Below are positions 6,728 through 19,785 of a DNA stretch of 27,480 bases, one piece after another (within the stretch, counting starts at the first letter, position 1; the number at the start of each line of letters is the position of its first letter). Below the pieces are notes generated by a model, which was not told the origin of the DNA, did not search any database, and saw only the letters and a list, made by a program, of their open reading frames with translations. The stretch is from a virus: IMG/VR virus record IMGVR_UViG_3300025327_000994, positions 1 through 27,480 of that record. One strand, given 5' to 3'. A program made the translations under genes and the position numbers.

Positions 6728-6743
6728 TCTGCCCCCTAAATGG
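6725..6743. repeat. 19-base direct repeat, copy 1
   Basis: Exact match to 7512-7530. It links the CCA end of tRNA-Thr(TGT) with the leader and GTG of the gene at 6509-6727. Confidence 0.8.
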
Positions 6744-6814
6744 AGCCCACACGAGGATTCGAACCCCGGATGCGCGGGTACAGGCCGCGTGCATTTCCCC
6801 TTTGCTATGCGGGC
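6741..6814 (-). tRNA. tRNA-Thr (TGT)
   Basis: Acceptor GCCCGCA pairs with TGTGGGC, and the anticodon stem is CGCGG/CCGCG. The loop is CCTGTAC, T loop TTCGAAT, and CCA is encoded. Position 33 is C instead of the near-universal T. Confidence 0.88.
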
Positions 6815-6818
6815 AAAA

Positions 6819-6893
6819 TGGAGCCGCGCTAAGGATTTGCACCTTAGACCCCGCTTTACGAGAGCGGTGCGTTGCTCCCTACGCTAGCGCGGC
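6819..6893 (-). tRNA. tRNA-Thr (CGT)
   Basis: Acceptor GCCGCGC pairs perfectly with GCGCGGC, the anticodon loop is CTCGTAA, and CCA is encoded. The T loop is TGCAAAT (atypical). The stop codon of the zinc-ribbon ORF ends one base before its 5' end. Confidence 0.88.
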
Positions 6894-6894
6894 T

Positions 6895-7200
6895 TTATAA
6901 TTCAGGCGGCCTGCACTCAGGGCAGACCGCATGTGGAAACATGGCTGCTCCCGGCCTCTGCCACTGTCGATCACAGTATGGGCACCTAGCCCATTCCTTA
7001 ATGGAGCCCTTGGTGGGATTCGAACCCACGGCCTCTCCCGTACCGGGGGAGTGCTCTGCCGACTGAGCTTCGAGGGCTTTGGTCAGTCTATCTATGGCTG
7101 CGATAAGCTCTTTGTATTCAGAGCCCCTAGGCTTTCTGCAAGAACATTCTTCATCTATGACAGATAGCTTAGCACCGCATAGATAACAATAGATTTTCAA
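6895..7200 (-). CDS. Double zinc-ribbon protein with a tRNA gene inside its frame
   Basis: The 101-codon ORF starts at TTG 7200 with GGAGG about 4 bases upstream. The first part has a zinc knuckle pattern (IYCYLCGAKL, then CSCRK) followed by a helix. The last part has CPYCDRQW and CPECRPPEL. The middle section, residues about 42-66, is the translation of the complete tRNA-Thr(GGT) gene at 7002-7077, read without a stop or frame change. The start and both zinc modules look real. Whether the tRNA part is translated, or separates what were two proteins, cannot be seen. No family is recognised. Confidence 0.55.
   Translation of the reverse strand: MKIYCYLCGAKLSVIDEECSCRKPRGSEYKELIAAIDRLTKALEAQSAEHSPGTGEAVGSNPTKGSIKEWARCPYCDRQWQRPGAAMFPHAVCPECRPPEL
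7002..7077 (-). tRNA. tRNA-Thr (GGT), nested inside an ORF
   Basis: Acceptor GCCCTCG pairs with CAAGGGC (one C-A mismatch), the anticodon stem is CTCCC/GGGAG, the loop CCGGTAC, the T loop TTCGAAT, and CCA is encoded. Position 33 is C. It lies wholly inside the coding frame of 6895-7200. Confidence 0.88.
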
Positions 7201-7213
7201 CGTGCCTCCAAAC

Positions 7214-7289
7214 TGGAAGCGTCAACGGGACTCGAACCCGCTAGGTTCAGGGTGAAGGCCTGATCGCTCGACTCTTTGCATTTGACGCT
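7214..7289 (-). tRNA. tRNA-Glu (TTC)
   Basis: Acceptor AGCGTCA pairs with TGACGCT, the anticodon arm is TCAGG/CCTGA with loop CCTTCAC (C33), the T loop TTCGAGT, and CCA is encoded. The stop codon of the upstream membrane-protein gene ends immediately before its 5' end. Confidence 0.88.
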
Positions 7290-7514
7290 TTAAAAGAATA
7301 CACTAAGCAGTTTTGCAAATCCCCACACTCCCACAGAACCAACAACCACCCATGCAAATATGCCCGTGGCTGCCGCCAAAATGAAGCTATGGTGCTCCAG
7401 CCGATCAAAAATTGAATCAGCGCACATGTAACAAGTAAGCAATGTAGCAAAGAATTCAAGAGCACACACTGCGCCCTTAAAAACATTAGTTACTGTGAAG
7501 TGTCCTGGTTCCAC
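7290..7514 (-). CDS. Small membrane protein between tRNA genes
   Basis: A 74-residue protein has two hydrophobic segments (VCALEFFATLLTCYMCAD and FILAAATGIFAWVVVGSV...). It starts at GTG 7514 behind AGGGGG, in the same repeated 19-base leader as the gene at 6727. It stops directly at the 5' end of tRNA-Glu with no spacer. No family is recognised. The alternative frame at 7247-7486 overlaps the tRNA and lacks a ribosome binding site. Confidence 0.55.
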   Translation of the reverse strand: MEPGHFTVTNVFKGAVCALEFFATLLTCYMCADSIFDRLEHHSFILAAATGIFAWVVVGSVGVWGFAKLLSVFF

Positions 7515-7530
7515 TCTGCCCCCTAAATGG
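7512..7530. repeat. 19-base direct repeat, copy 2 (tRNA 3' end plus gene leader)
   Basis: The sequence CACTCTGCCCCCTAAATGG occurs here and identically at 6725-6743. On the minus strand it joins the encoded CCA of a tRNA to the ribosome binding site and GTG start of a small gene. Confidence 0.8.
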
Positions 7531-7630
7531 TAGCCCAGGTGGGGATCGAACCCACATTCGCCACGGTTTGAGCGTGGTGCGTTAACGATGGTTTAAGCAT
7601 CGCGCGTTTGCCTAGTTACGCCACTGGGCC
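7528..7630 (-). tRNA. tRNA-Leu (TAA) with a second anticodon-like arm (CAA)
   Basis: Acceptor GGCCCAG pairs with CTGGGCT (G1-T72), the D arm is Leu-like, and the anticodon arm CGATG-CTTAAAC-CATCG gives TAA. The T arm is GTGGG-TTCGATC-CCCAC and CCA is encoded. The variable region is about 30 nt instead of the usual 10-20. It contains CCACG-CTCAAAC-CGTGG, a perfect 5-bp stem with a 7-nt anticodon-like loop reading CAA, also leucine. Removing about 25 nt would leave a normal class I tRNA with that second arm. Confidence 0.8.
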
Positions 7631-7635
7631 AAAGA

Positions 7636-7710
7636 TGGTCCGCTCGGCAGGACTCGCACCTGCACTACTCAGGCTCTCGACCTGACGACTCTGCATTGGT
7701 CTACGAGCGG
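7636..7710 (-). tRNA. tRNA-Leu (GAG), short variable loop
   Basis: Acceptor CCGCTCG pairs with CGAGCGG, the anticodon arm is TCAGG/CCTGA with loop TCGAGAG (C33), the T loop TGCGAGT, and CCA is encoded. The variable loop is only 5 nt, whereas bacterial leucine tRNAs have a long arm. The isotype follows the anticodon and the charged amino acid is not certain. Confidence 0.75.
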
Positions 7711-7711
7711 A

Positions 7712-7783
7712 TGGTAGCAGGGATGGGAGTTGCGCCCATCGGGCTGAGGTTATGAGCCTCTGCTGCACACTGGTGCCCCTGCA
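7712..7783 (-). tRNA. tRNA-Met (CAT)
   Basis: The anticodon loop CTCATAA gives CAT. Acceptor pairs 2-7 are GCAGGG/CCCTGC with a T1-T72 mismatch, which recalls the unpaired 1-72 position of initiator tRNAs. The T loop is CGCAACT and CCA is encoded. Initiator, elongator or Ile(CAT) identity is open. Confidence 0.78.
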
Positions 7784-7785
7784 AT

Positions 7786-7864
7786 TGGTACGCCCTGTAG
7801 GACTCGAACCTACAAGCAGCACGTTCTAAGCGTGCTAGGTATTCCTGATTCCCGTCAAGGGCGC
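7786..7864 (-). tRNA. tRNA-Leu (TAG), short variable loop
   Basis: Acceptor GCGCCCT pairs with AGGGCGT (G1-T72), the anticodon stem is GCACG/CGTGC with loop CTTAGAA, the T arm GTAGG-TTCGAGT-CCTAC, and CCA is encoded. The variable loop is 5 nt. Its 5' end abuts the stop codon of the Asp-box gene. Confidence 0.82.
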
Positions 7865-10084
7865 TTATCTCGGGGTGATGGGCCAGCGGTAGAGCATAAA
7901 CCCTTGGCCCACCACATTTAAGTAAAGCTCTCGCCTATCAACTGGATTCACGACCACTCTTCCAACCCCTTTGAGTGGGAAGCTCGCCATGAGTGCCTTC
8001 CAGTTAGTGCCTCCGTCCGTTGTGTAAAGCACGCCTTCAGACTTTGTATTATCTCCCCCACCTTTGATAAGTTCTGACGAAGCGATATATATAATGTTTG
8101 AGTTTATTGAGTCCACAGCGACGTGACGCCAACGATCTCCAGTTCGAATCTTAGTCCAGTCGGTCCCTGTATTCGTGCTCTTCCACACGCCTCGAAGTCC
8201 TGCACCACCAAAAGCGGCTACATAAACTGCATTCGCAAGCGTCGGATGTGTAATAATTGTGTGAACTCCATTCCAGACCTCGCCTTGGACCGATCCACTA
8301 GCTGCCCCTGCCATGTTCGTGGCACTGATGTTTGACCAAGCAGTTCCTCCATTAGTCGAGCGCCAAACCCCGGCGATTCCGCCAGCATACATCAAGTTTG
8401 CGTCAGCAGGATCAATTGCGGTGGTGTAAAGCGCACCACCTGCTGTAGCCTGTGTAAGCGTCACTGCCCAAGTCACACCGTCGTCAGTGCTTTTATATAC
8501 GTCCCCACCGGCTGTCACTAACATCACACGGCTTCCGGCTGAGGAAGAGCGTGCTAATGAGATGCCTCGAACGAAGCCGTCTGTCATCCCTGTGGCTTTG
8601 GTCCAGTTCGCTCCGTCATTAGTGCTGTAGTAGACGTTAAGCCCCGTTCCACTTGGAGAACCGATACAAGCCCAGAGTTTTCCATCCGTGGTAGGGTCGC
8701 ATACTATTGAATTGCAATTCCCCCCATGCGTCCCGTTGTCCCACTCGGTTGTGGTTCCGGCGTTTCGCATCACGCTGCTTTGACCTTTGTCAGTTGTGAC
8801 CCAGAGCCCCAAGTCCCAATAACCTAGATAGACTTTACCGCTTGTGGTCTCGCTGGCTGCTAGACCGCCTCCCACTACGTTATCTAAGCCACGCCCCCGC
8901 CATGCGCTTCCTACTGCGTCTGTCCCAATCGTATCTACGATGGTCCCACCCGCACGACAGGTGTATGCGAATTGGGCGCCAATTAAAAAGAATGAATCTG
9001 GGTCGTTGTAGTTAGGGGCGGTGGACTTGGCGAATCCGTAGATGTTCTTGCCATGTGCGGCTGAGAGGTCGATGTCGGCTGTTCCTTGCCAATGACCACT
9101 GAAGGACATTCCTGAGAGCTTCTTGGTCCAAGTGCTCGCGGTCGAGTCATACTCCCAGACCCCTGATTTATGTGTGCCTCCTGAGGCTGGGAAGCGCTCT
9201 ATGTCAATCGTGCGAATGATATTTGGTTGGTCCTCACGAATGAATAACGTTCCGGTGTGTACAGCGGAAGGAGTAACTCGGCTCCAGTTATCACCACCAT
9301 CTGTAGTATGGCATAGCTCGCCGGTCCAGAAGCTTGGATTCCCTGGGTTTGCCGGATCGTCTTCACGAATAGTGATGTACGCTCTGCTTGTATCGGCGGG
9401 GTGGAAGGCGCAGTCCCAAATAAGGTCGCCTGCGTCACCAACTAACGATGCGGCCTGCTGTGCCCAAGAAGTTCCACCGTTTGTCGAGAGCCAGAGTGAA
9501 GAGTCTGTGACTGACACAAACCCGTCGTCTCCGTGAAGCGTCATGACGCGATTAGCGTCGAGGGGATGCACAATCACCTTCAGTAAGCGGAGACTGGCCG
9601 CTGGTGCCCCCATGCTACTGAAGGTGAGCCCCCCATCTGTGCTTTTGTAGATTGCGCCATCTAGTGTGGTGTTACTGGTGTGTACACAGGCATAAACTAT
9701 TGTGGGGTTTGCCTTTGCGACAGCGATTGCAGTAGTGTAGTTATTCGTTACGTTGGTGATAATGAAGTTGTCACCGCCGTCGTTGCTACGGTAGATTGCG
9801 CGCTCGGTTCCTACGAACACAACATTTGAGTTTGTGGGATCGCAGGCCACCGCCGAGAAATGGGTGCGCGCCCCGAGACCGGCGTTGGCGGTCCCTAGGA
9901 CTTCCCAGGTACGGCCTCGGTCCTTTGAGCGTGAAAGCCCTCCAAGGTCCCCGGTAATAAACCAAGTTCCAATAGGCGAGGCGGCGGCCGAAGTCCACGC
10001 ACCTCCCTCGCCAGGGTTCATGTTGAATAGCCCGGAACGAGTTGCTGGAGTTAGAATAGTGATAGCAGGCGGCTTGACGGTCAC
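7865..10084 (-). CDS. Asp-box / BNR-repeat beta-propeller protein (GH74- or sialidase-like)
   Basis: The 739-residue protein carries about eleven Asp-box repeats spread over its length, such as SKDRGRTW, SNDGGDNF, STDGGLTF, STNGGTSW, TTDGGDNW, STDDGVTW and TTDGGTNW. They alternate with segments of the type VVFVGT or IYIAS. This is the pattern of seven-bladed propellers found in GH74 xyloglucanases, sortilin-like proteins and sialidases. No signal peptide is seen. In a phage it could be a tail-associated glycan-binding or depolymerising protein, but catalytic residues cannot be assigned. The GTG start overlaps the stop of the small upstream gene (GTGA). The gene splits the tRNA array into two parts, which is an odd site for a structural gene. 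Confidence 0.8.
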   Translation of the reverse strand: MTVKPPAITILTPATRSGLFNMNPGEGGAWTSAAASPIGTWFITGDLGGLSRSKDRGRTWEVLGTANAGLGARTHFSAVACDPTNSNVVFVGTERAIYRSNDGGDNFIITNVTNNYTTAIAVAKANPTIVYACVHTSNTTLDGAIYKSTDGGLTFSSMGAPAASLRLLKVIVHPLDANRVMTLHGDDGFVSVTDSSLWLSTNGGTSWAQQAASLVGDAGDLIWDCAFHPADTSRAYITIREDDPANPGNPSFWTGELCHTTDGGDNWSRVTPSAVHTGTLFIREDQPNIIRTIDIERFPASGGTHKSGVWEYDSTASTWTKKLSGMSFSGHWQGTADIDLSAAHGKNIYGFAKSTAPNYNDPDSFFLIGAQFAYTCRAGGTIVDTIGTDAVGSAWRGRGLDNVVGGGLAASETTSGKVYLGYWDLGLWVTTDKGQSSVMRNAGTTTEWDNGTHGGNCNSIVCDPTTDGKLWACIGSPSGTGLNVYYSTNDGANWTKATGMTDGFVRGISLARSSSAGSRVMLVTAGGDVYKSTDDGVTWAVTLTQATAGGALYTTAIDPADANLMYAGGIAGVWRSTNGGTAWSNISATNMAGAASGSVQGEVWNGVHTIITHPTLANAVYVAAFGGAGLRGVWKSTNTGTDWTKIRTGDRWRHVAVDSINSNIIYIASSELIKGGGDNTKSEGVLYTTDGGTNWKALMASFPLKGVGRVVVNPVDRRELYLNVVGQGFMLYRWPITPR

Positions 10085-10209
10085 TTCTTCTTTTTTCTTT
10101 CGACCTTGTTCATGGTCCCATATACGTAAGCATCCTTACGCTCTTGGGACCAGTTCGGATGTTCTTTCTCGACTTCGCGTTTTAGCTTGTCGTGGAGTTT
10201 TTTCGGCAC
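10081..10209 (-). CDS. Small basic phage protein (MPKKLHDKL type)
   Basis: This 42-residue protein begins MPKKLHDKLKREVEKEHPNW and continues with SQERKDAYVYGTMNKVERK. The pattern PKKLHDKL...ERxDAYVYGTxxK recurs in short phage proteins of unknown function. The start is GTG 10209 with GGAAGGAA 7 bases upstream. Its stop overlaps the start of the Asp-box gene and its start overlaps the end of the previous gene. Confidence 0.65.
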   Translation of the reverse strand: MPKKLHDKLKREVEKEHPNWSQERKDAYVYGTMNKVERKKKK

Positions 10210-10463
10210 TTTATTGTTCCTTCCCTCACCTTCGCGCACCACTCTCGTTCTTCCATGCGTACCTGCTCAACGTATTGCCCACTGACTTCAAGTTGTTCCA
10301 GTGACCCACGCTTGTACGCTTCAGCGGCGACGACGGCGAGCAGGCCGGCGAGCAAGGCCACATCTTCCTCGTTGGGTTGGGCTTGCATACCGGGATGTGG
10401 CCACGGTTCTATCCGCGCTCTCAGCCACTCCCGCGCGAGGGCGGCGTAGCGGTCGTCAGGCAT
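10182..10463 (-). CDS. Hypothetical helical protein
   Basis: A 93-residue protein with an N-terminal helix (ALAREWLRARIEPWP), an alanine/leucine-rich middle (EEDVALLAGLLAVVAAEAYK) and a charged C-terminus. It overlaps genes on both sides by a few to 28 bases, so it belongs to the short operon that feeds into the Asp-box gene. The hydrophobic middle could be a membrane helix but is interrupted by charges. No family is recognised. Confidence 0.6.
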   Translation of the reverse strand: MPDDRYAALAREWLRARIEPWPHPGMQAQPNEEDVALLAGLLAVVAAEAYKRGSLEQLEVSGQYVEQVRMEEREWCAKVREGTIKCRKNSTTS

Positions 10464-10647
10464 GGAGAGCCTTGTTACACTGATGCGCTAGCGCCCACCT
10501 GCGCGCTTGAAAGCGATTCCAGGTGATTGGGCTCTCCCACTCACACTCCTGACACTCAGCTAGGTAGTGTTCACTGTCCTCTGACCACCACACCACCAGC
10601 GGATACTTCACTTGCTGGTGGGGCGACCAGCCGCACGCGGTTCTCAC
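10456..10647 (-). CDS. Small protein with CxxC zinc-like motif
   Basis: A 63-residue protein reading HYLAECQECEWESPITW and ending in HQCNKALHA, a plausible one-zinc fold using CxxC and the later His/Cys. GTG 10647 overlaps the stop of the upstream gene (GTGA) and follows GAGAGGA. It overlaps the next gene by 8 bases. Function unknown. Confidence 0.6.
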   Translation of the reverse strand: MRTACGWSPHQQVKYPLVVWWSEDSEHYLAECQECEWESPITWNRFQARRWALAHQCNKALHA

Positions 10648-10895
10648 GTCGTCCTCTCTGGCGTCCCTGGCCTCCCCGCGCGCAGAGCGTCCACGAGCGC
10701 GGCGCCTGCGATGTTCTGAATCTCACGCAAGCTCGCCATCGGGTCATGGCCGTCAAGCTGGCCGTTGTATCCCTCCCCATTGCAATCTCTCAGCGCCGCC
10801 CGCAGCCGCTCGCAGCACTCGGCCAGGGCGTCGCGCTCGGCCACAAGGCGTCTGATTGTATCCTCTGCGTCTTGCATTACGAACTCGTACTTCAC
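10644..10895 (-). CDS. Hypothetical coiled-coil protein
   Basis: This 83-residue protein starts with a strong heptad-like helix (AEDTIRRLVAERDALAECCE) and a second helix after a short glycine-rich loop. Start GTG 10895 has AGGAGG 5 bases upstream, the strongest start in this small operon. It is the first of five coupled genes ending with the Asp-box protein. No family is recognised. Confidence 0.65.
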   Translation of the reverse strand: MKYEFVMQDAEDTIRRLVAERDALAECCERLRAALRDCNGEGYNGQLDGHDPMASLREIQNIAGAALVDALRAGRPGTPERTT

Positions 10896-10907
10896 TCAGC
10901 CTCCTAG

Positions 10908-10993
10908 TGGTGCGTGATGCAGGGATCGAACCTGCCGTGAGCGTTGCTCGGAAGGGTTACAGCCTTCTGCACCGCCGTTGGTGCGTCTCACGC
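10908..10993 (-). tRNA. tRNA-Tyr (GTA)
   Basis: Class II tRNA with a long variable arm (CGAGC...GCTC). The anticodon arm is GAAGG/CCTTC with loop CTGTAAC, the T arm GCAGG-TTCGATC-CCTGC, and CCA is encoded. Acceptor pair 7:66 is mismatched. Confidence 0.9.
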
Positions 10994-10997
10994 AAGT

Positions 10998-11071
10998 TGG
11001 TAGGTCAGTCGGGGATTGAACCCGAATCTCGCTGGTTAAGAGCCAGTGGCTCTGCTTTGAGCTACTGACCT
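10998..11071 (-). tRNA. tRNA-Lys (CTT)
   Basis: Acceptor AGGTCAG pairs perfectly with CTGACCT. The anticodon loop is CTCTTAA, the T loop TTCAATC-type, and CCA is encoded. Only one base separates it from the preceding tRNA-Arg. Confidence 0.9.
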
Positions 11072-11072
11072 G

Positions 11073-11145
11073 TCCCCCTAGTAGGACTCGAACCCACATG
11101 GGCCGGGTTAGAACTCCGGTGAGCGTCCATTCGCTCATTAGGGGG
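11073..11145 (-). tRNA. tRNA-Arg (TCT), no encoded CCA
   Basis: Acceptor CCCCCTA pairs with TAGGGGG, the D stem is GAGCG/CGCTC, the anticodon loop GTTCTAA, and the T arm GTGGG-TTCGAGT-CCTAC. The discriminator A is followed by C and then directly by the tRNA-Lys start, so CCA is not encoded, unlike every other tRNA here. Confidence 0.88.
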
Positions 11146-11150
11146 GAAAA

Positions 11151-11224
11151 TGGATGCAGAGGTAGGATTCGAACCTACACCAGCGTGGTTCAGAGCCACG
11201 ATGACTGCCGTTATCTACTCTGCA
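11151..11224 (-). tRNA. tRNA-Gln (CTG)
   Basis: Acceptor TGCAGAG pairs with CTCTGCA, the anticodon arm is CGTGG-CTCTGAA-CCACG, the T loop TTCGAAT, and CCA is encoded. Confidence 0.92.
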
Positions 11225-11226
11225 AA

Positions 11227-11312
11227 TGGCGGAAGTGTCAGGAGTCGAACCTGAGCGTGCATGCACGGCCTCAGTTTAGCAAACTGGCCGATTACCACTC
11301 TCGCACACTTCC
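11227..11312 (-). tRNA. tRNA-Ser (GCT)
   Basis: Class II tRNA: acceptor GGAAGTG/CACTTCC, anticodon loop TTGCTAA, long variable arm with GTGC/GCAC stem, T arm TCAGG-TTCGACT-CCTGA, discriminator G and encoded CCA. Confidence 0.9.
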
Positions 11313-11317
11313 AAAGA

Positions 11318-11392
11318 TGGATGCAGGAGTAGGACTCAAACCTACATTGGCCTCGTTCAAAGCGAGGGGACCTATCATTAGTCGATCCTGCA
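11318..11392 (-). tRNA. tRNA-Gln (TTG)
   Basis: Acceptor TGCAGGA pairs with TCCTGCA, the anticodon arm is CCTCG-CTTTGAA-CGAGG, the T loop TTTGAGT, and CCA is encoded. Confidence 0.9.
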
Positions 11393-11393
11393 A

Positions 11394-11469
11394 TGGAGAC
11401 TGCGGCTGGATTCGAACCAGCGATACGAAGGTTGCAGCTTCGGGCCTTCGCCAACTTGGCTACGCAGTC
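11394..11469 (-). tRNA. tRNA-Cys (GCA)
   Basis: Acceptor GACTGCG pairs with CGCAGTC, the anticodon arm is CGAAG-CTGCAAC-CTTCG, the T arm GCTGG-TTCGAAT-CCAGC, and CCA is encoded. Confidence 0.92.
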
Positions 11470-11472
11470 AAA

Positions 11473-11548
11473 TGGTGGACCCTGTGGGACTCGAACCCAC
11501 ATCAGCTTGCTTGCAAGGCAAGTGTGTTCCCATTAGCACCAAAGGCCC
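11473..11548 (-). tRNA. tRNA-Ala (TGC)
   Basis: Acceptor GGGCCTT pairs with AGGGTCC through G-T pairs, the anticodon arm is CTTGC-CTTGCAA-GCAAG, the T arm GTGGG-TTCGAGT-CCCAC, and CCA is encoded. Confidence 0.9.
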
Positions 11549-11551
11549 AAA

Positions 11552-11627
11552 TGGTAGGGCATGGAAGATTCGAACTTCCGACCAGTCGCTTCCAAGGCGA
11601 CTACGCTGTCCGCTGCGCTAATGCCCT
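11552..11627 (-). tRNA. tRNA-Pro (TGG)
   Basis: Acceptor AGGGCAT pairs with ATGCCCT, the anticodon arm is GTCGC-CTTGGAA-GCGAC, the T arm GGAAG-TTCGAAT-CTTCC, and CCA is encoded. Confidence 0.92.
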
Positions 11628-11650
11628 ATGTTTCTTCCTCATATGTGAAG

Positions 11651-11728
11651 TGGTTGACGCTCTCGGAATCGAACCGAGTTCTCATGCTCTTCAGGCACGC
11701 GCTGAATCACCAGACTAGCTCAGCGTCA
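11651..11728 (-). tRNA. tRNA-Phe (GAA)
   Basis: Acceptor TGACGCT pairs with AGCGTCA, the anticodon arm is CGTGC-CTGAAGA-GCATG (G37), the T arm CTCGG-TTCGATT-CCGAG, and CCA is encoded. Confidence 0.9.
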
Positions 11729-11847
11729 ATGTGCTTGTCTCGGCGGCCCGCTTCCAGTTGTGCGAAGCTGAGCGCACTCAGCAAGGCTGCTGACGGCCAC
11801 CAGACGGAGGGGAACGCGCTCCCTGGTCCATCTGGGAATAAATGCAC
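11707..11847 (-). CDS. Possible small protein in the tRNA array (46 aa)
   Basis: In the 225-base gap between tRNA-Phe and tRNA-Ile a GTG-initiated frame begins MHLFPDGPGSAFPSVWWPSA and continues AALLSALSFAQLEAGRRDKH. It ends inside the 5' half of tRNA-Phe, as does the gene at 6509 with tRNA-Asp. The composition is protein-like, but the ribosome binding site is weak and no family is known. The rest of this gap (11848-11955) shows nothing else convincing. Confidence 0.35.
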   Translation of the reverse strand: MHLFPDGPGSAFPSVWWPSAALLSALSFAQLEAGRRDKHIDAELVW

Positions 11848-11955
11848 CTCTAACCTAGGACTGCGAGGTGGCGCACATACGCCTGCGCTGGCGTTTGAAG
11901 CGTCGGCCGCGACACGAGCGTACCGCCGACTCTAGAGGGAGCTACCCTCCAGCTT

Positions 11956-12047
11956 TGGTAGGCCCACCGGGACTCGAACCCGGATCACGCCCTAATCTAG
12001 GGCTCCCAGGGTATAAGCCTGGCGTTCTCCCATTGAACTATGGGCCG
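11956..12047 (-). tRNA. tRNA-Ile (TAT) with hairpin insertion in the variable region
   Basis: The D stem is GTTC/GAAC, the anticodon arm CCAGG-CTTATAC-CCTGG, the T arm CCGGG-TTCGAGT-CCCGG, acceptor pairs 2-7 GGCCCA/TGGGCC, and CCA is encoded. Positions 1 and 72 (C and T) do not pair. The variable region is 22 nt instead of 5. It holds GCCCTAGATTAGGGC (11989-12003), a perfect hairpin whose loop can be read as TAGATTA, showing GAT, another isoleucine anticodon. Confidence 0.82.
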
Positions 12048-12048
12048 A

Positions 12049-12291
12049 TTATCGCTTCTTTCCATGGCGCTTTAGATAAACACTATCAAGCACGCTTTTA
12101 TCAGGACTCGCCCCCCCAGTCCATTCATTGCGTGGCTCGTCCCATAAATCCCCCCACATGCGCTTCATAGCCGCGCTATGATGAATTCCATTCCAATAAT
12201 AATCGGGGGTGATGTTAGGAACACCATTACCAACACCACACCATCGACAGTTTGTACCTGGCCCTGCTGCTCCACCACCACACATGCACAT
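12049..12291 (-). CDS. Small zinc-knuckle protein between tRNA genes
   Basis: The 80-residue protein begins MCMCGGGAAGPGTNCRWCG, a four-cysteine knuckle at the very N-terminus. It continues with a WNG/WGDLWDEP aromatic-rich region and a basic end. ATG 12291 follows GTGGAGACAAA; an upstream extension to 12330 would just translate tRNA-Ser sequence. The stop ends one base before the 5' end of tRNA-Ile(TAT). No family is recognised. Confidence 0.6.
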   Translation of the reverse strand: MCMCGGGAAGPGTNCRWCGVGNGVPNITPDYYWNGIHHSAAMKRMWGDLWDEPRNEWTGGASPDKSVLDSVYLKRHGKKR

Positions 12292-12302
12292 TTTGTCTCC
12301 AC

Positions 12303-12387
12303 TGGAGGAAGGTGTAGGATTCGAACCCACGTGTCCGAAGACTCACTAGTTTTCAAGACTAGCGCCTTACCACTCGGCCAACCTTCC
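12303..12387 (-). tRNA. tRNA-Ser (TGA)
   Basis: Class II tRNA: acceptor GGAAGGT/ACCTTCC, anticodon arm CTAGT-CTTGAAA-ACTAG, variable arm GAGTCTTCGGAC, T loop TTCGAAT, encoded CCA. The 83 bases between it and tRNA-Val hold only unconvincing short frames. Confidence 0.92.
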
Positions 12388-12470
12388 AAAATCGAGGGTC
12401 TTTTGATGAGAGACCGGCAGAACTCAGCATGGTGTTTATCCCTAGGGCTAGGTGGTTCATGCTCACCCAC

Positions 12471-12546
12471 TGGTGCCCAGCCTTGGCTATGCTCCAAGTA
12501 CCTTTAGTTTGTAAGACTAACGCTCTTCTGATTGAGCTAGCCGGGC
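12471..12546 (-). tRNA. tRNA-Val (TAC) with degenerate T loop
   Basis: Acceptor GCCCGGC pairs with GCTGGGC, the D arm is GCTC...GAGC, and the anticodon arm is TTAGT-CTTACAA-ACTAA. The T stem CTTGG/CCAAG closes a loop AGCATAG that has none of the usual TTCRA bases. CCA is encoded. Confidence 0.8.
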
Positions 12547-12549
12547 AAT

Positions 12550-12627
12550 TGGTAGGTCACGCTGGGTTGACTACCAGCATCTCATCGGTTAAAAGCCGAG
12601 GGCTTTGCTTCGTTAAGCTAGTGACCT
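12550..12627 (-). tRNA. tRNA-Lys (TTT) with degenerate T loop
   Basis: Acceptor AGGTCAC pairs with GTGACCT and the anticodon loop is CTTTTAA. The T stem GCTGG/CCAGC closes an 8-nt loop TAGTCAAC, both longer and different from the norm. CCA is encoded. Confidence 0.82.
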
Positions 12628-12631
12628 GAAA

Positions 12632-12707
12632 TGGACTCCCCGACAGGATTCGAACCCGCATTATCCGGCGTTCGTAGCGCCGTGCATTTCCGTTTTGCTA
12701 CGGGGAG
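12632..12707 (-). tRNA. tRNA-Arg (ACG)
   Basis: Acceptor CTCCCCG pairs with CGGGGAG, the anticodon arm is CGGCG-CTACGAA-CGCCG, the T loop TTCGAAT, and CCA is encoded. Confidence 0.92.
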
Positions 12708-12708
12708 A

Positions 12709-12785
12709 TGGCACACGCACAGGGAATCGAACCCTACTCTTTGCAGTTTTGGAGACTGTCTCGGATGCCCAGCCCGCCTGCGTGC
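12709..12785 (-). tRNA. tRNA-Trp (CCA)
   Basis: Acceptor GCACGCA pairs with TGCGTGT (G1-T72), the anticodon arm is ACAGT-CTCCAAA-ACTGC, the T arm AGGG-TTCGATT-CCCT, discriminator G, and CCA is encoded. Confidence 0.88.
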
Positions 12786-12806
12786 ACAAGTCTATGTCAT
12801 GCTGTA

Positions 12807-13529
12807 TTACACCAAGCCTGCGGTTAACATTCTGTCTTTGGTAGTAGAGAAGTACCCACCTGGCACAACTGATGCAGCGTGTGTGAAGTAGTAACAAAGC
12901 TCTTCATTGAGTGGTATTTGGAAAGCTGGATCGGTAGGGTCTAGTGTACGCACCAAGTGCCAAGGAAGGTGCCGTGCTGTGTATGGACGCCCCGCGCTCA
13001 TGCCATCTATCTTAGGCAATACCCCCGGACGATACAATGCAAAGGTGGTATCTGTGTTATGACCAAAGTACGAACATTTGCTACCTTCGAACTCTATTTC
13101 TGTCCTCCATCTATCAGGATGTCCGTTGGGATAATAGATAAAGCCGTCTGCCTTGGATGCAGGGTTTGCTGACGGAATCCCCGTATCATCTAAGGATAGT
13201 GCACACTTGGTATGCGTAGTCCATCTATCTAAGCCCTCTTTCAACACCGATGGCCAATCAACTGGGACCAAAGAGATGTCTAAGTCCGGGTCCGTTACTA
13301 CATAGGGCTCAGTTAGGTGTTGAATGGATCGAAGGGTCCACGGTGCATACGCACCTATATTGCTCACTAACCTCCATACATAGAGGCCACACTTGTTATA
13401 CCATTCTAGCAACGGGGGATAGCTGCTTGCGTTGTCTACAAATACAACCTCGTGTCCCTCATTTGCTAGCTTTGTTGCCATTTCTCTTGGCCACGTCAGC
13501 AGGTCACGGTTGTTTATGTAAATCTTCAT
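12807..13529 (-). CDS. Glycosyltransferase, GT-A fold
   Basis: The 240-residue protein opens with a nucleotide-sugar-binding type N-terminus (NRDLLTWPREMATKLANEGH, then EVVFVDNASS). It has a DxD-type metal site in YVVTDPDLDIS (residues about 77-86). These are features of GT2-like transferases. Possible acceptors are host surface glycans, phage proteins or modified DNA bases; the sequence does not decide. It is an insertion of ~0.7 kb in the tRNA array. ATG 13529 has no clear ribosome binding site but follows a strongly structured ~160-base leader. Confidence 0.75.
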   Translation of the reverse strand: MKIYINNRDLLTWPREMATKLANEGHEVVFVDNASSYPPLLEWYNKCGLYVWRLVSNIGAYAPWTLRSIQHLTEPYVVTDPDLDISLVPVDWPSVLKEGLDRWTTHTKCALSLDDTGIPSANPASKADGFIYYPNGHPDRWRTEIEFEGSKCSYFGHNTDTTFALYRPGVLPKIDGMSAGRPYTARHLPWHLVRTLDPTDPAFQIPLNEELCYYFTHAASVVPGGYFSTTKDRMLTAGLV

Positions 13530-13577
13530 GCGCGAGCGCCGGGCTGTATCCTAGCTGTTAGACGAGTGAGTAGAGTT

Positions 13578-13682
13578 GGGGCGTATCGTGCCCCCTATCT
13601 ATACGATTTTCGGCAACCCGAAGGCCCTTTCGATTCGTATAGATGTACGGCTTAGCGTGACTACCCTTTTGCCCGCGCTAAG
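13578..13682 (-). promoter_or_regulatory. Structured leader of the glycosyltransferase gene
   Basis: Three inverted repeats lie in the gap between tRNA-Ile(GAT) and the glycosyltransferase start. They are 13651-13657 with 13676-13682 (CTTAGCG/CGCTAAG); 13597-13606 with 13635-13644 (ATCTATACGA/TCGTATAGAT, enclosing a TTCGG/CCGAA hairpin); and 13578-13582 with 13590-13594 (GGGGC/GCCCC). No T-run follows, so these look like RNA structures, not simple terminators. Confidence 0.45.
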
Positions 13683-13694
13683 TTCGAGCGAAAA

Positions 13695-13768
13695 TGGTCC
13701 GCCACCAAGGATTCGCACCCTGATACCCCGCTAATCGGGCGGGGGTCCTGCTATTGGACGAGCGGCGG
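13695..13768 (-). tRNA. tRNA-Ile (GAT)
   Basis: Acceptor CCGCCGC pairs with GTGGCGG, the D stem is GTCC/GGAC, and the anticodon stem is CCCGC/GCGGG. The loop CCGATTA has C33 and T37, both atypical. The T loop is TGCGAAT and CCA is encoded. Confidence 0.78.
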
Positions 13769-13769
13769 A

Positions 13770-13845
13770 TGGCTGCACAGGCGGGATTCGGACCCGCATC
13801 TCCCGACTTAACAGGTCGATGTTTTGCCAATTAAACTACCGGGCA
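13770..13845 (-). tRNA. tRNA-Asn (GTT)
   Basis: The anticodon arm is TCGAC-CTGTTAA-GTCGG, the T arm GCGGG-TCCGAAT-CCCGC, and CCA is encoded. Acceptor TGCCCGG/CTGTGCA contains one C-T mismatch. Confidence 0.85.
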
Positions 13846-13850
13846 GCATG

Positions 13851-13925
13851 TGGGGTGACAGGCTGGACTTCCACCAGCTTGGGGAGGGTCACAACCTCCA
13901 GGTTCGAGTCTTCACCATCTGCCAC
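13851..13925 (-). tRNA. tRNA-His (GTG)
   Basis: Acceptor GTGGCAG pairs with CTGTCAC, the D stem is GGT/ACC, the anticodon arm GGAGG-TTGTGAC-CCTCC, the T arm GCTGG-TGGAAGT-CCAGC, discriminator C, and CCA is encoded. The base before position 1 is T, not the G-1 that histidine tRNAs normally need. Confidence 0.78.
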
Positions 13926-13953
13926 ACTTGGAAGTGCTTGTCGCACTTGAACT

Positions 13954-14027
13954 TGGAGCGGATACAGGGACTCCAACCCTGACCTTCAGTTTGGAAGACT
14001 GAGGCGCTAGCATTACGCCATACCCGC
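13954..14027 (-). tRNA. tRNA-Gly (TCC)
   Basis: Acceptor GCGGGTA pairs with TATCCGC, the anticodon arm is TCAGT-CTTCCAA-ACTGA, the T arm CAGGG-TTGGAGT-CCCTG, and CCA is encoded. It is the first tRNA in transcription order. Confidence 0.88.
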
Positions 14028-14473: not shown

Positions 14474-14807
14474 CTCCTTTCACTAACTTCACTTTTCACT
14501 TCACTATTTTTCGAATAGTGAAGTGGCCGCTAAGTTGTTGCGAATAGCGGACTTGGACTTCACTAGTGACGAACTTCACTAATCGTATTCTAATCGTTGC
14601 GGCACAACGACTTACGCCGTTCACTATTTCCCCTATATACATAGCACGCTAGTGAAGCGTTCGCTTTCACTACCGCGCCGCGCTCCGCTGAGGCTTCGCG
14701 CTTGCTGCGTGCTTGAGTATATAGCGCGCGAGGTAGTGCTTGTCTCGGGGGGATGGTGTTAAGGGATGGGCTTCGAAGGCTTAATAACGCCGGAGGCTAT
14801 TAAGACT
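14474..14807 (-). promoter_or_regulatory. Gene-free control region with TTCACTA repeats
   Basis: This 330-base stretch has no convincing gene. It holds about ten copies of TTCACT(A) in both orientations (14479-14670), an AT-rich CTATATACATAG segment near 14631-14643 and several inverted repeats. It precedes the gene at 14464 and could carry its promoter and repressor or initiator binding sites. The part from about 14680 to 14807 shows nothing specific beyond GC-rich short inverted repeats. Confidence 0.5.
14497..14525. repeat. 12-bp perfect inverted repeat
   Basis: CACTTCACTATT (14497-14508) and AATAGTGAAGTG (14514-14525) are separated by five bases. The arms contain the TTCACTA unit that recurs through the region, so this may be a strong dimer binding site, or a hairpin in the leader RNA. 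Confidence 0.75.
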
Positions 14808-17041: not shown

Positions 17042-17109
17042 GGAGTAGGCAGGTTCCAGTGGACCTGGAGCTTACGGTGCTTAGCACCAGCCTGCCTTGG
17101 GACTACTCC
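17042..17109 (-). other. Cloverleaf-like intergenic structure
   Basis: On the minus strand GGAGTAG (17109-17103) pairs with CTACTCC (17048-17042). A 7-base bulge and then GCAGG/CCTGC follow, enclosing two hairpins: GGTGC-TAA-GCACC (17088-17076) and CCAG-GTCCA-CTGG (17068-17056). The shape recalls a tRNA, but no anticodon or T loop is recognisable. It fills the whole gap between two genes. Confidence 0.5.
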
Positions 17110-17423
17110 GCTACGAATCGGGGCTCGTAGTTGAACTGGGCCTGGACCACGCCCAGATGGTCACAGAGGGCCATGCCGTCCGTGTTCTCCTTGATGTACC
17201 ACCCGGCAGGAACAGAGAAGGTGGCAGGAGACTCGGAGCGCGGGGCAAAGCCCGCAGCGCCGAGGATGGCCTGGCCGAGTGCGACGGCTGAGGCGGCGTC
17301 GATGACGCCCTCGGTACGGGGAAGAGCAAGAAACACATTGGGGCCGTCTGAGTCAACGATGGCCGACTGAGACGAGAAGGGCGCTTGCCCTCTCGCCTGA
17401 GCAGCGCGAAGTGTGATGTTCAT
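17103..17423 (-). CDS. Hypothetical protein (106 aa)
   Basis: The protein starts MNITLRAAQARGQAPFSSQS and has alternating strands and a helix (ASAVALGQAILGAAGF), ending with YIKENTDGMALCDHLGVVQ and a short tail. Strand content and size resemble the neighbour at 16626. ATG 17423 follows GGGAGGTGAAAA; longer frames are not supported. No family is recognised. Confidence 0.65.
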   Translation of the reverse strand: MNITLRAAQARGQAPFSSQSAIVDSDGPNVFLALPRTEGVIDAASAVALGQAILGAAGFAPRSESPATFSVPAGWYIKENTDGMALCDHLGVVQAQFNYEPRFVAE

Positions 17424-17511
17424 TGGGTTTTCACCTCCCTTCGAGGGGATTTTTGAGGCGTGGATGATGCAATCTCCCGTGGGTAGTGACGTGGCCCTCA
17501 ACGCCTACCCT

Positions 17512-18167
17512 GTCGGCATGCCCTTGCCTATGCGCTAAGTCAGGGTGCTGACCAGTGTGCCCCTGGGAGACTATGCCCGTGCGCCTAGCACAGCCCTTTT
17601 GTGCCCGTGCCCACCCTTCTATCCTGAGCGCTCGGAATCCTCGGGCGGGCTGGCCTTCACTGATGGGATGAGGCTAGACCGTTGCGAGTCTCAGATGGGT
17701 GCGGAGTTCACATATTCGCGTGTGCCGTTCGCGGGGACGCCCGTGCGTGTCGGGGTGCGGTGCTATGGGACACCGCGCGTCACGTATGGCGCGCTGGCCC
17801 CGTCGCCCTCGTCTCATATCCTCGCCCATTTGGCCCGATGCGCCGACTCTACGGTACGCATTGGCGTTTGGGGGGCGGACCCCGGCTCAGTTACCTGAGC
17901 ACCGGGCGTGTGTTCCCGGCCCCTTCTGCTAGGCGTTCACTCGCTTCCCGAGCTAAGCCATCGCTTGGGTAGCGGCAGGTTTCGCGCTGCCGCCTTGCGC
18001 CGCGTTAGATGCGCCGAAGCGCTACGCGGATTTGTTAAGTTACTGTCACGGCGCCCCGAGGCTGGCCGGTCGCCAGATGGAACGGTCGCCGGTACGGAGT
18101 GAGTCTGCCGGACTCATCGGGCAGGGGGCTCACCCTGCGACGTGCGCCACGCGGCGCACGTTTCGTC
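17512..18167 (-). ncRNA. Candidate large structured non-coding RNA
   Basis: About 650 bases carry no convincing gene on either strand but many strong inverted repeats. On the minus strand these include a hairpin with a GTAA (GNRA) loop at 17881-17906, a GCGC-TTCG-GCGC hairpin (UUCG loop) at 18011-18022 closed by CCGCGT/ACGCGG, and GCGGCAG/CTGCCGC at 17972-17993. Others are CCGATGCG/CGCATTGG at 17835-17864, TGAGTC/GACTCA at 18100-18116, GCAGGG/CCCTGC at 18121-18138 and a 9-bp hairpin at 18140-18161. The stable tetraloops form on the strand being transcribed here. Size, phage context and nearby tRNAs recall ROOL or GOLLD RNAs, but no family match could be tested. Confidence 0.5.
18140..18161 (-). 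terminator. 9-bp GC-rich hairpin after a small gene
   Basis: ACGTGCGCC and GGCGCACGT form a perfect 9-bp stem with a 4-base loop, 6 bases beyond the stop of the gene at 18168. There is no T-run on the minus strand, so it may be the 5' edge of the structured RNA and not a terminator. Confidence 0.35.
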
Positions 18168-18371
18168 CTAGGCGGATTCGTAGGCGTTGAAGCCCACGAC
18201 GATGGCTGCCATTCCTGGTAGCCGCTTGTTGCCCTCGGTGGATGCCACGCGGATGGTCTTGCCGGACTTGGAACGCCCGCCCCGATGCTTGAGGTCGATT
18301 CGGAGCGTAAGCGTGTCTTCGGAGACCTCGGCCGTGACGTTCTCGCCGATGGGCACTCCCTTGAGTGCCAT
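18168..18371 (-). CDS. Small conserved-looking phage protein (67 aa)
   Basis: The protein begins MALKGVPIGENVTAEVSEDT and contains LTLRIDLKHRGGRSKSGKTI and RVASTEGNKRLPG. The arrangement (GVxIGEN...LxLxIDL..RxGRSKSGKTIxVASTxGN) recurs in short phage and prophage proteins of unknown function. ATG 18371 follows GGGAGGG by 7 bases. It is flanked on both sides by structured gaps. Confidence 0.7.
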   Translation of the reverse strand: MALKGVPIGENVTAEVSEDTLTLRIDLKHRGGRSKSGKTIRVASTEGNKRLPGMAAIVVGFNAYESA

Positions 18372-18424
18372 GTGTGTGCCCTCCCGACTGCGATGCACGG
18401 ATGCGCCGTGCGCGCTTGCAAAGA

Positions 18425-18481
18425 TGGGGGCAGGGCCGCTGGCCTTCGTGGGGCGGACTGCCCTTGGGACATTGGCCCCCA
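18425..18481 (-). other. Nested-stem intergenic structure
   Basis: TGGGGGC (18425-18431) pairs with GCCCCCA (18475-18481), and inside it AGGGC (18432-18436) pairs with GCCCT (18460-18464), with a short GGCC...GGCC pair within. The element lies in the 262-base gap upstream of the gene at 18371. A second hairpin, GTGCTAG/CTAGCAC (18605-18625), lies just beyond the stop of the gene at 18634. Nothing coding is seen in this gap. Confidence 0.45.
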
Positions 18482-18633
18482 CAGTCACATGGGTACTTGC
18501 TTGGCCTCGTGGCAGCTTGCAGCCAGCCCGTAGGTGCTGCGTGACCGGTACACTGTGTTGCCCCCGAAGCGTGCCCCGGATTTATCGGCCGCTCTCGGGT
18601 TGCCGTGCTAGTGCGCGTCTAGCACACGGGGCG

Positions 18634-19499: not shown

Positions 19500-19623
19500 G
19501 ACATTTGCTTGACTGCTGACTTCCGCAAAGTGTGCGGAAATAAGATGCGGAAAGCGTGTAAGGCGTTGGCGCGCAGCATGTTGTGCGATCGGAAGAAGGA
19601 TTCGCACGGGCGCGCGGCGCGTT

Positions 19624-19785
19624 GCAAGGGCCGTGCCAGTGAAGAATCCCCCCTCGCGCGAGCGAGCGTAGCAAGGCCGATGCCAAGCCGGGATTGGCAT
19701 GGAACTTGCACTCCGCACCCGATGCAAGAAGTGTGCCAGCGGCGCGGCACAGAGCGTGCTACGCGTAGCAAGAGGCGTGCCAGTG
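19624..19785. repeat. Four imperfect direct repeats spaced about 50 bp
   Basis: Copies of GCAAGRRSYGTGCCAGYG begin at 19624, 19671 (weaker), 19724 and 19768, spaced 47, 53 and 44 bases. They lie between the divergent operons, a place where iterons or operators would be expected. Confidence 0.45.

Follow-up and report, generated by a model that had tools for sequence, protein, structure and literature searches.

Few large, ornate RNAs are known from phages, and what they do is unsolved. Two of these RNAs build cages that consist of RNA only: the ROOL cage is an octamer and the GOLLD cage a 14-mer. Both cages assemble via kissing loops and A-minor contacts, and the two families are highly variable in sequence (PMC12286853). 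Besides these, phage K and ICP1 have long noncoding RNAs in gene-free stretches that are known from RNA-seq and belong to no family, and those of phage K adjoin tRNA genes (PMC9241854, PMC7567579). Given these unclassified examples, orphan long RNAs do occur in phages.

Here we analyze a gene-free region in a 27,480-base IMG/VR virus record of a phage (the window, i.e., the whole stretch of DNA that was analyzed), which also carries large terminase, portal, primase/helicase-like, and Sak4-like genes. The original prediction for this region was an ornate large RNA, possibly of a new class. A length of ~670 nt, compensatory changes, a GNRA loop whose stem covaries, and an array of 23 tRNA genes on the same strand speak for that prediction, and we consider it close to certain that the region specifies a real, structured, and previously unclassified phage RNA.

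The phage and its relatives

We found no close relative of this phage in the annotated phage collection and no homologue of its terminase among bacterial genomes. A further contig (3300025313_000642) is nearly identical in sequence to the window and, hence, was not counted as independent. The useful distant relative is L008 (contig 3300027985_000704), which shares 74% identity with the window in the terminase. The tRNA genes in this 27-kb fragment amount to close to one per amino acid; only two of them (Asn and Gly) are comparable with L008, because the L008 contig ends there. Within the array lies a gene (7865-10084) for a 739-aa beta-propeller (BNR/sortilin-like) protein that has no relative in the annotated phage collection.

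Two other stretches of the window deserve mention. At 14479-14672 (L008 1412-1591), nine copies of TAGTGAA, distributed over both strands, adjoin an AT-rich TATATATATA-like stretch. This cluster is kept in L008, has an alignment folding z score of -5.0 on the minus strand, and gave an empty Rfam search; it is a candidate for an iteron-type replication origin or, alternatively, a second structured leader. The other stretch (18372-18633) is a second gene-free one, directly upstream of the small gene that precedes the RNA, and its alignment folding z score of -4.1 comes from an alignment that is unreliable because the identity is only 45%.

A gene-free gap with tetraloop hairpins

On the minus strand, ~744 nt separate the stop of the gene at 18168-18371 from the start of the gene at 17103-17423. 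All minus-strand frames of this gap carry stops in both the window and L008, and a tblastn search with all open reading frames of the window found no frame spanning it. The gene-free character ascribed to 17512-18167 is thus borne out. A conserved protein-coding frame, one of the two outcomes named beforehand as counting against an RNA, is not shared with L008, and a coding region was rejected on this ground. The gap itself is real, and the extent of the element needs widening, with the 3' helix reaching to ~17472 and a possible hammerhead extending back to ~18176.

The two tetraloops first noticed on the minus strand are both present: a GNRA hairpin, GCTCAG-GTAA-CTGAGC, with the GTAA at 17891-17894, and a UNCG hairpin, GCGC-TTCG-GCGC, with the TTCG at 18015-18018. 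A third hairpin of the UNCG type (GGGG-TCCG-CCCC) accompanies them, and the plus strand has no GNRA or UNCG tetraloop hairpins. The view that such loops would not be expected by chance was too strong, as at least two GNRA/UNCG hairpins occur in 9% of shuffled sequences and at least three in 1.1%. Nor does hairpin strength carry weight, the single-sequence folding energy being ordinary for the GC content (z of -0.31 in the window and -0.91 in L008). For these two reasons, the tetraloop hairpins are weak as evidence. The TTCG loop is not conserved in L008; the GTAA loop becomes GTGA there, on a covarying stem.

Comparative evidence for a conserved structure

The region holds the same position in L008, flanked by the same pair of genes. 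Across the core (17805-18012), DNA identity with L008 is 76%, compared with 34-47% identity for the neighboring proteins, which are mostly unalignable as DNA; that is, nucleotide-level conservation of the region exceeds that of the flanking genes. Folding of the alignment between the window and L008 gave a z score of -6.6 against column shuffles, a null that preserves conservation, gaps, and local composition. Treated in the same way, a terminase segment scored +1.35 and +0.56 (one value per strand), the portal +1.65, and a tRNA segment -3.5, and the neighboring genes on the minus strand ranged from -0.7 to -2.4.

A second null kept all substituted positions and dealt the derived letters anew (100 draws). 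Here, conserved pairing reached 41.9 against 17.8 ± 5.3, and pairing of two substituted positions reached 8.05 against 1.63 ± 0.9, with 0 of the 100 draws as high. In a third null, based on RNAalifold, 47 double changes were observed against 30.7 ± 3.4 (maximum of 40 in 200 shuffled alignments), and long helices with a double change numbered 10 against 3.4 ± 1.6 in the shuffled alignments. Covariation, originally put forward as one of the checks on the prediction, is present in the comparison with L008 (one distant homologue), and all three nulls are exceeded; it is this comparison that decides in favor of the RNA.

The consensus structure comprises 115 pairs in 22 helices, none of them broken, with 30 double compensatory changes and 3 single changes; sliding the partners by 1 to 3 columns leaves between 0 and 4 double changes. 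This structure was chosen by hand with knowledge of the alignment, and the unbiased figures are therefore the z score of -6.6 and those from the redealt-letter and RNAalifold nulls. When the whole RNA is folded globally to minimum energy, the two phages agree poorly (31 pairs in common, 8 of these being double changes), which is why local and alignment folding were used.

Anatomy and distribution of the RNA

The part of the RNA that is conserved in L008, with compensatory pairing, spans ~17472-18091, and the 5' end would lie at 18138 if the hammerhead cleaves (Table 1). Since there are only two independent sequences, the individual helices and any pseudoknots are uncertain; ROOL is marked by pseudoknots and covarying kissing loops, and a search for covarying pseudoknots with these two sequences gave no additional covarying helix. 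The apical loop GAGCGCUC of P_L is a candidate self-kissing loop and might have a role in self-assembly. Palindromes of 8 nt are not rare in 700 nt (~3 are expected by simple counting); the position of this one in an apical loop and its conservation are suggestive.

Table 1. Features of the RNA and its surroundings, by position in the window
Feature	Position	Strand	Remarks
Four tandem sigma54-type (-24/-12) promoter sites, predicted	19623..19782	-	Facing the operon; TGGCAY-N5-TTGC, fixed spacing
Upstream neighbor gene	18168..18371	-	67 aa, family unassigned; also in L008, L003, L004, and L037
Type II hammerhead ribozyme, candidate	18103..18176	-	Descriptor match; minimum-energy and centroid fold
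Large structured noncoding RNA, ~670 nt	17472..18138	-	Alignment folding z of -6.6 and two further nulls
P_B stem CGGCG/CGCCG	18049..18091	-	Pairing in both phages
P_C	18000..18029	-	Capped by TTCG loop (18015-18018) in the window, different loop in L008
P_D hairpin	17972..17993	-	GGCAG/CUGCC (window) vs GGCCACA/UGUGGCC (L008); register shifted by one column
P_E, four nested short stems	17921..17969	-	Holds the longest invariant run, AGTGAACGCCTAGCAGAAGGGGCCGGG
P_F hairpin GCCGGG/CCCGGT	17901..17920	-	Pairs invariant
P_G hairpin, GNRA tetraloop	17886..17899	-	CUCAG-GUAA-CUGAG (window) vs CUCCC-GUGA-GGGAG (L008)
P_H, multi-layer arm	17819..17879	-	Invariant loop UAGAGU; four double changes within one 5-bp stem
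Poorly conserved internal stretch	17767..17809	-	8-nt length difference vs L008
P_I hairpin	17740..17754	-	One base pair lost from both sides vs L008 (compensatory deletion)
P_J domain, stacked helices enclosing P_K and P_L	17588..17725	-	Consensus helices 12-17; stem GCACA/UGUGC vs GCGUG/CACGC
P_K, inside P_J	17642-17686	-	
P_L hairpin, inside P_J	17622..17636	-	Invariant palindromic loop GAGCGCUC (17626-17633)
3' domain, five stacked helices	17472..17571	-	Consensus helices 18-22; nine double changes in total
Downstream neighbor gene	17103..17423	-	106 aa, family unassigned; 47% identical in L008; ribosome-binding site near 17433
tRNA array	6741..14027	-	23 genes, same strand as the RNA and downstream of it; closest tRNA ~3.4 kb off

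A BLASTN search of phages and plasmids with the element returned nothing, as did nhmmer over all collected loci. When viral contigs were scanned with four DNA patterns, of which two let the helices vary freely, only this phage and L008 were recovered; a pattern scan of genome contigs gave no structural match among the matches listed; and a covariance model of the core, run over 11 phage records, found only its two parents. In the more distant L003, L004, and L037, the small upstream gene is present, other genes follow it, and the RNA is absent. As far as can be seen from these sequences, the RNA appears to be a rare, clade-restricted element.

Transcription of the operon

A consensus scan found neither a sigma70-type promoter nor a minus-strand terminator near the RNA; hence, the RNA probably lies within the operon transcript and, for the same reason, may remain part of an mRNA. 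The motif TGGCAY-N5-TTGC, which we take to be the sigma54 consensus, has 6 exact matches on the two strands of the window against 0.11 expected. At the corresponding place, two such sites each are found in two relatives, L007 (549-609) and L008 (6864-6947). Judging from the motif, these sites are predicted to act as sigma54 promoters. Five of them fall within 160 bp (minus strand, 19623-19782; plus strand, 19695-19709) in the gap from which the leftward operon and the rightward packaging genes diverge. To our knowledge, tandem sigma54 sites in a phage appear unusual.

A candidate hammerhead at the 5' edge

A descriptor search picked out a candidate type II hammerhead ribozyme at the 5' edge of the RNA, the only site in the whole window; in shuffled windows, any match occurred in 17 of 600 and an equally strong one in 1 of 600. 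It comprises stem II (GGAC/GUCC), GAAA at 18164-18161, a 9-bp stem III, an unpaired C, and a 6-bp stem I, and it follows the order II-GAAA-III-H17-I-core-II with stem II open. Cleavage would be expected after C18139, just upstream of the conserved RNA. Both the minimum-energy and the centroid structure of 18176-18103 form the three-way junction of a type II hammerhead (z of -3.1).

Like type II hammerheads (RF02276; PMC3088659), the candidate has closed stems I and III, an open stem II, the GAAA, an A-U closing pair, and a cleavable C. Unlike them, it has the core CCGAUGA (CCGATGA at 18120-18114) instead of CUGANGA, the one deviation being a C at U4; it is not kept in L008, where the descriptor scan found no hammerhead; and it lies below Rfam detection, with no match to RF02276 at an E value of ≤10. 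Further, type II hammerheads mostly have a pseudoknot of at least 4 bp between loop I and the tail, whereas in the candidate the GCC of loop I (UGAGCC) could pair with the GGC directly after stem II, giving ~3 bp by inspection. Natural variants of the hammerhead core, when tested, have often been of low or no activity (PMC3088659). After cleavage, GAGUC-CGGCA-GACUC, directly past the core, could fold into a hairpin; the L008 hairpin at this place differs in sequence. We regard activity of the candidate as doubtful.

Proposed function and alternative explanations

An RNA with several domains, a conserved position, compensatory base pairing, no conserved reading frame, and no known family, situated in a tRNA-rich operon, is, by analogy, most plausibly a trans-acting structural RNA like ROOL and GOLLD. 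We propose, with a probability of roughly 0.55, that it represents a new family, namely, a large, trans-acting, and probably self-assembling phage RNA that is an analogue of ROOL and GOLLD without sequence kinship to them. Taken by itself, action in trans is quite likely; self-assembly is a more tentative suggestion, as the hints pointing to it are just two, the palindromic loop and the GNRA loop. With only two members known, the fine structure, oligomerization, and function given here are proposals.

In the mechanism that we envisage, the RNA would be transcribed leftward as part of the operon, probably from the tandem sigma54-type promoters 1.5 kb upstream, and released from the transcript possibly by the type II hammerhead cut after 18139 in this phage and by host RNases elsewhere. 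It would then adopt a fold of several multi-layer arms, in which some loops are invariant, one is the conserved GNRA loop, and one, at an apex, is palindromic. In this form it would act in trans, as an RNA machine or an RNA particle, instead of serving as the leader of an mRNA, with GNRA contacts and the palindromic loop driving self-assembly as in ROOL and GOLLD. Its most likely role would be that of an abundant structural RNA in infection, helping the phage to take over the cell or to use the tRNAs that it encodes itself. A more far-reaching version, which we consider improbable as a whole, is a self-released and self-assembling class, in which the hammerhead trims the 5' end and the 670-nt RNA oligomerizes through the palindromic and GNRA loops into an RNA-only particle unrelated to ROOL and GOLLD, under a sigma54 switch in infection.

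The strongest rival, unlikely in our estimate and still deserving serious weight, is a giant cis-acting leader that stays on the mRNA of the gene at 17103-17423 and controls its translation or stability. The conserved RNA stops ~48 nt ahead of the start codon and is directly followed by the ribosome-binding site, the consensus scan found no terminator between them, and L008 has the same gene downstream. However, an RNA of 670 nt and several independent domains goes well past what is usual for leaders, and the part with the best conservation is central, at a distance of 400 nt from the gene, and not beside the ribosome-binding site.

Considerably less probable is an element acting at the DNA level, for instance in packaging or replication, with inverted repeats that merely resemble those of an RNA. 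The packaging and replication sites of this phage have not been located, and the reverse complement of the region folds about as well (alignment folding z of -7.0). Yet the minus strand has more locally folded pairing in common between the phages than the plus strand (41.9 versus 27.9), the GNRA loop is kept though its stem changes, the multi-branched, nested covariation fits an RNA, and the separate TAGTGAA cluster at 14479-14672 is a better candidate for an origin.

Rfam searches of the window and the element, at gathering and relaxed E-value thresholds, returned only tRNAs and chance-level fragments, and a search of L008 at gathering level gave only tRNAs. A phi29-type packaging RNA was rejected, as an Rfam match is absent and the size is wrong; group I and II introns were likewise rejected on the absence of an Rfam match. 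A large ribozyme or self-splicing element resembling such introns and lying between two genes is marginally less probable than a DNA element. It would accord with the size, the multi-domain fold, the invariant unpaired stretches, and the small ribozyme candidate at the edge; however, among Rfam intron and ribozyme families searched to an E value of 10, only a weak, partial type I hammerhead match appeared, the region has no intron-type reading frame inside, and no gene is interrupted.

A strongly diverged ROOL or GOLLD RNA has a lower probability again; membership in either family had been entertained in the original prediction. A tRNA-rich phage neighborhood, the length, and the elaborate fold are alike, and the known variability of both families would leave room for divergence (PMC12286853). 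Against this, the ROOL model (RF03087) has no match at an E value of ≤10 in the window or L008, even though the same search finds real members elsewhere (full-length ROOL in 4 of 151 genomes from the family of a Lactobacillus relative), and the RNA has no sequence likeness to those ROOL loci. The GOLLD model (RF02032) has no match at an E value of ≤10 in the window, in a search whose positive control was weak, and GOLLD was not reported at an E value of ≤10 when the element was scanned against the whole of Rfam under relaxed settings, L008 being scanned at gathering level. By these tests, membership in either family is not supported.

A chance gene-free spacer with ordinary hairpins, to which the chance-level hairpin energy and the two tetraloop hairpins in 9% of shuffles might be taken to point, is the least probable explanation by some distance, as all comparative tests are against it and the compensatory changes refute it unless the L008 alignment is wrong.

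Comparison with known large phage RNAs

We return to the proposed trans-acting family and its parallels. As a comparative handle on the function of ornate RNAs, the RNA described here offers a compact construct for synthesis and imaging, and the hammerhead candidate makes it easy to test how the 5' end of such an RNA could arise. Long RNAs of phage K and ICP1 differ from it in how they came to light, as the present RNA is predicted from compensatory evolution; a BLASTN comparison of its sequence with the phage collection gave no match. GOLLD, like this RNA, is large, ornate, and phage-borne, often lies near tRNA genes, and has a conserved 3' domain, and self-kissing loops are known from it; the RNA differs in that the GOLLD model does not match the window (with the weak positive control mentioned above) and in being ~150 nt shorter than many GOLLD RNAs. 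The likeness to ROOL extends to size (~550-660 nt for ROOL versus ~670 nt here), carriage by phages, an elaborate multi-helix fold, a tRNA-rich neighborhood, and an internal variable linker, which ROOL likewise has; unlike ROOL, the RNA matches the ROOL model in neither phage and is dissimilar in sequence to ROOL loci. An unrelated family in the same setting, a tRNA-rich phage operon, would suggest that large ornate RNAs have arisen on at least two occasions to serve a common purpose.
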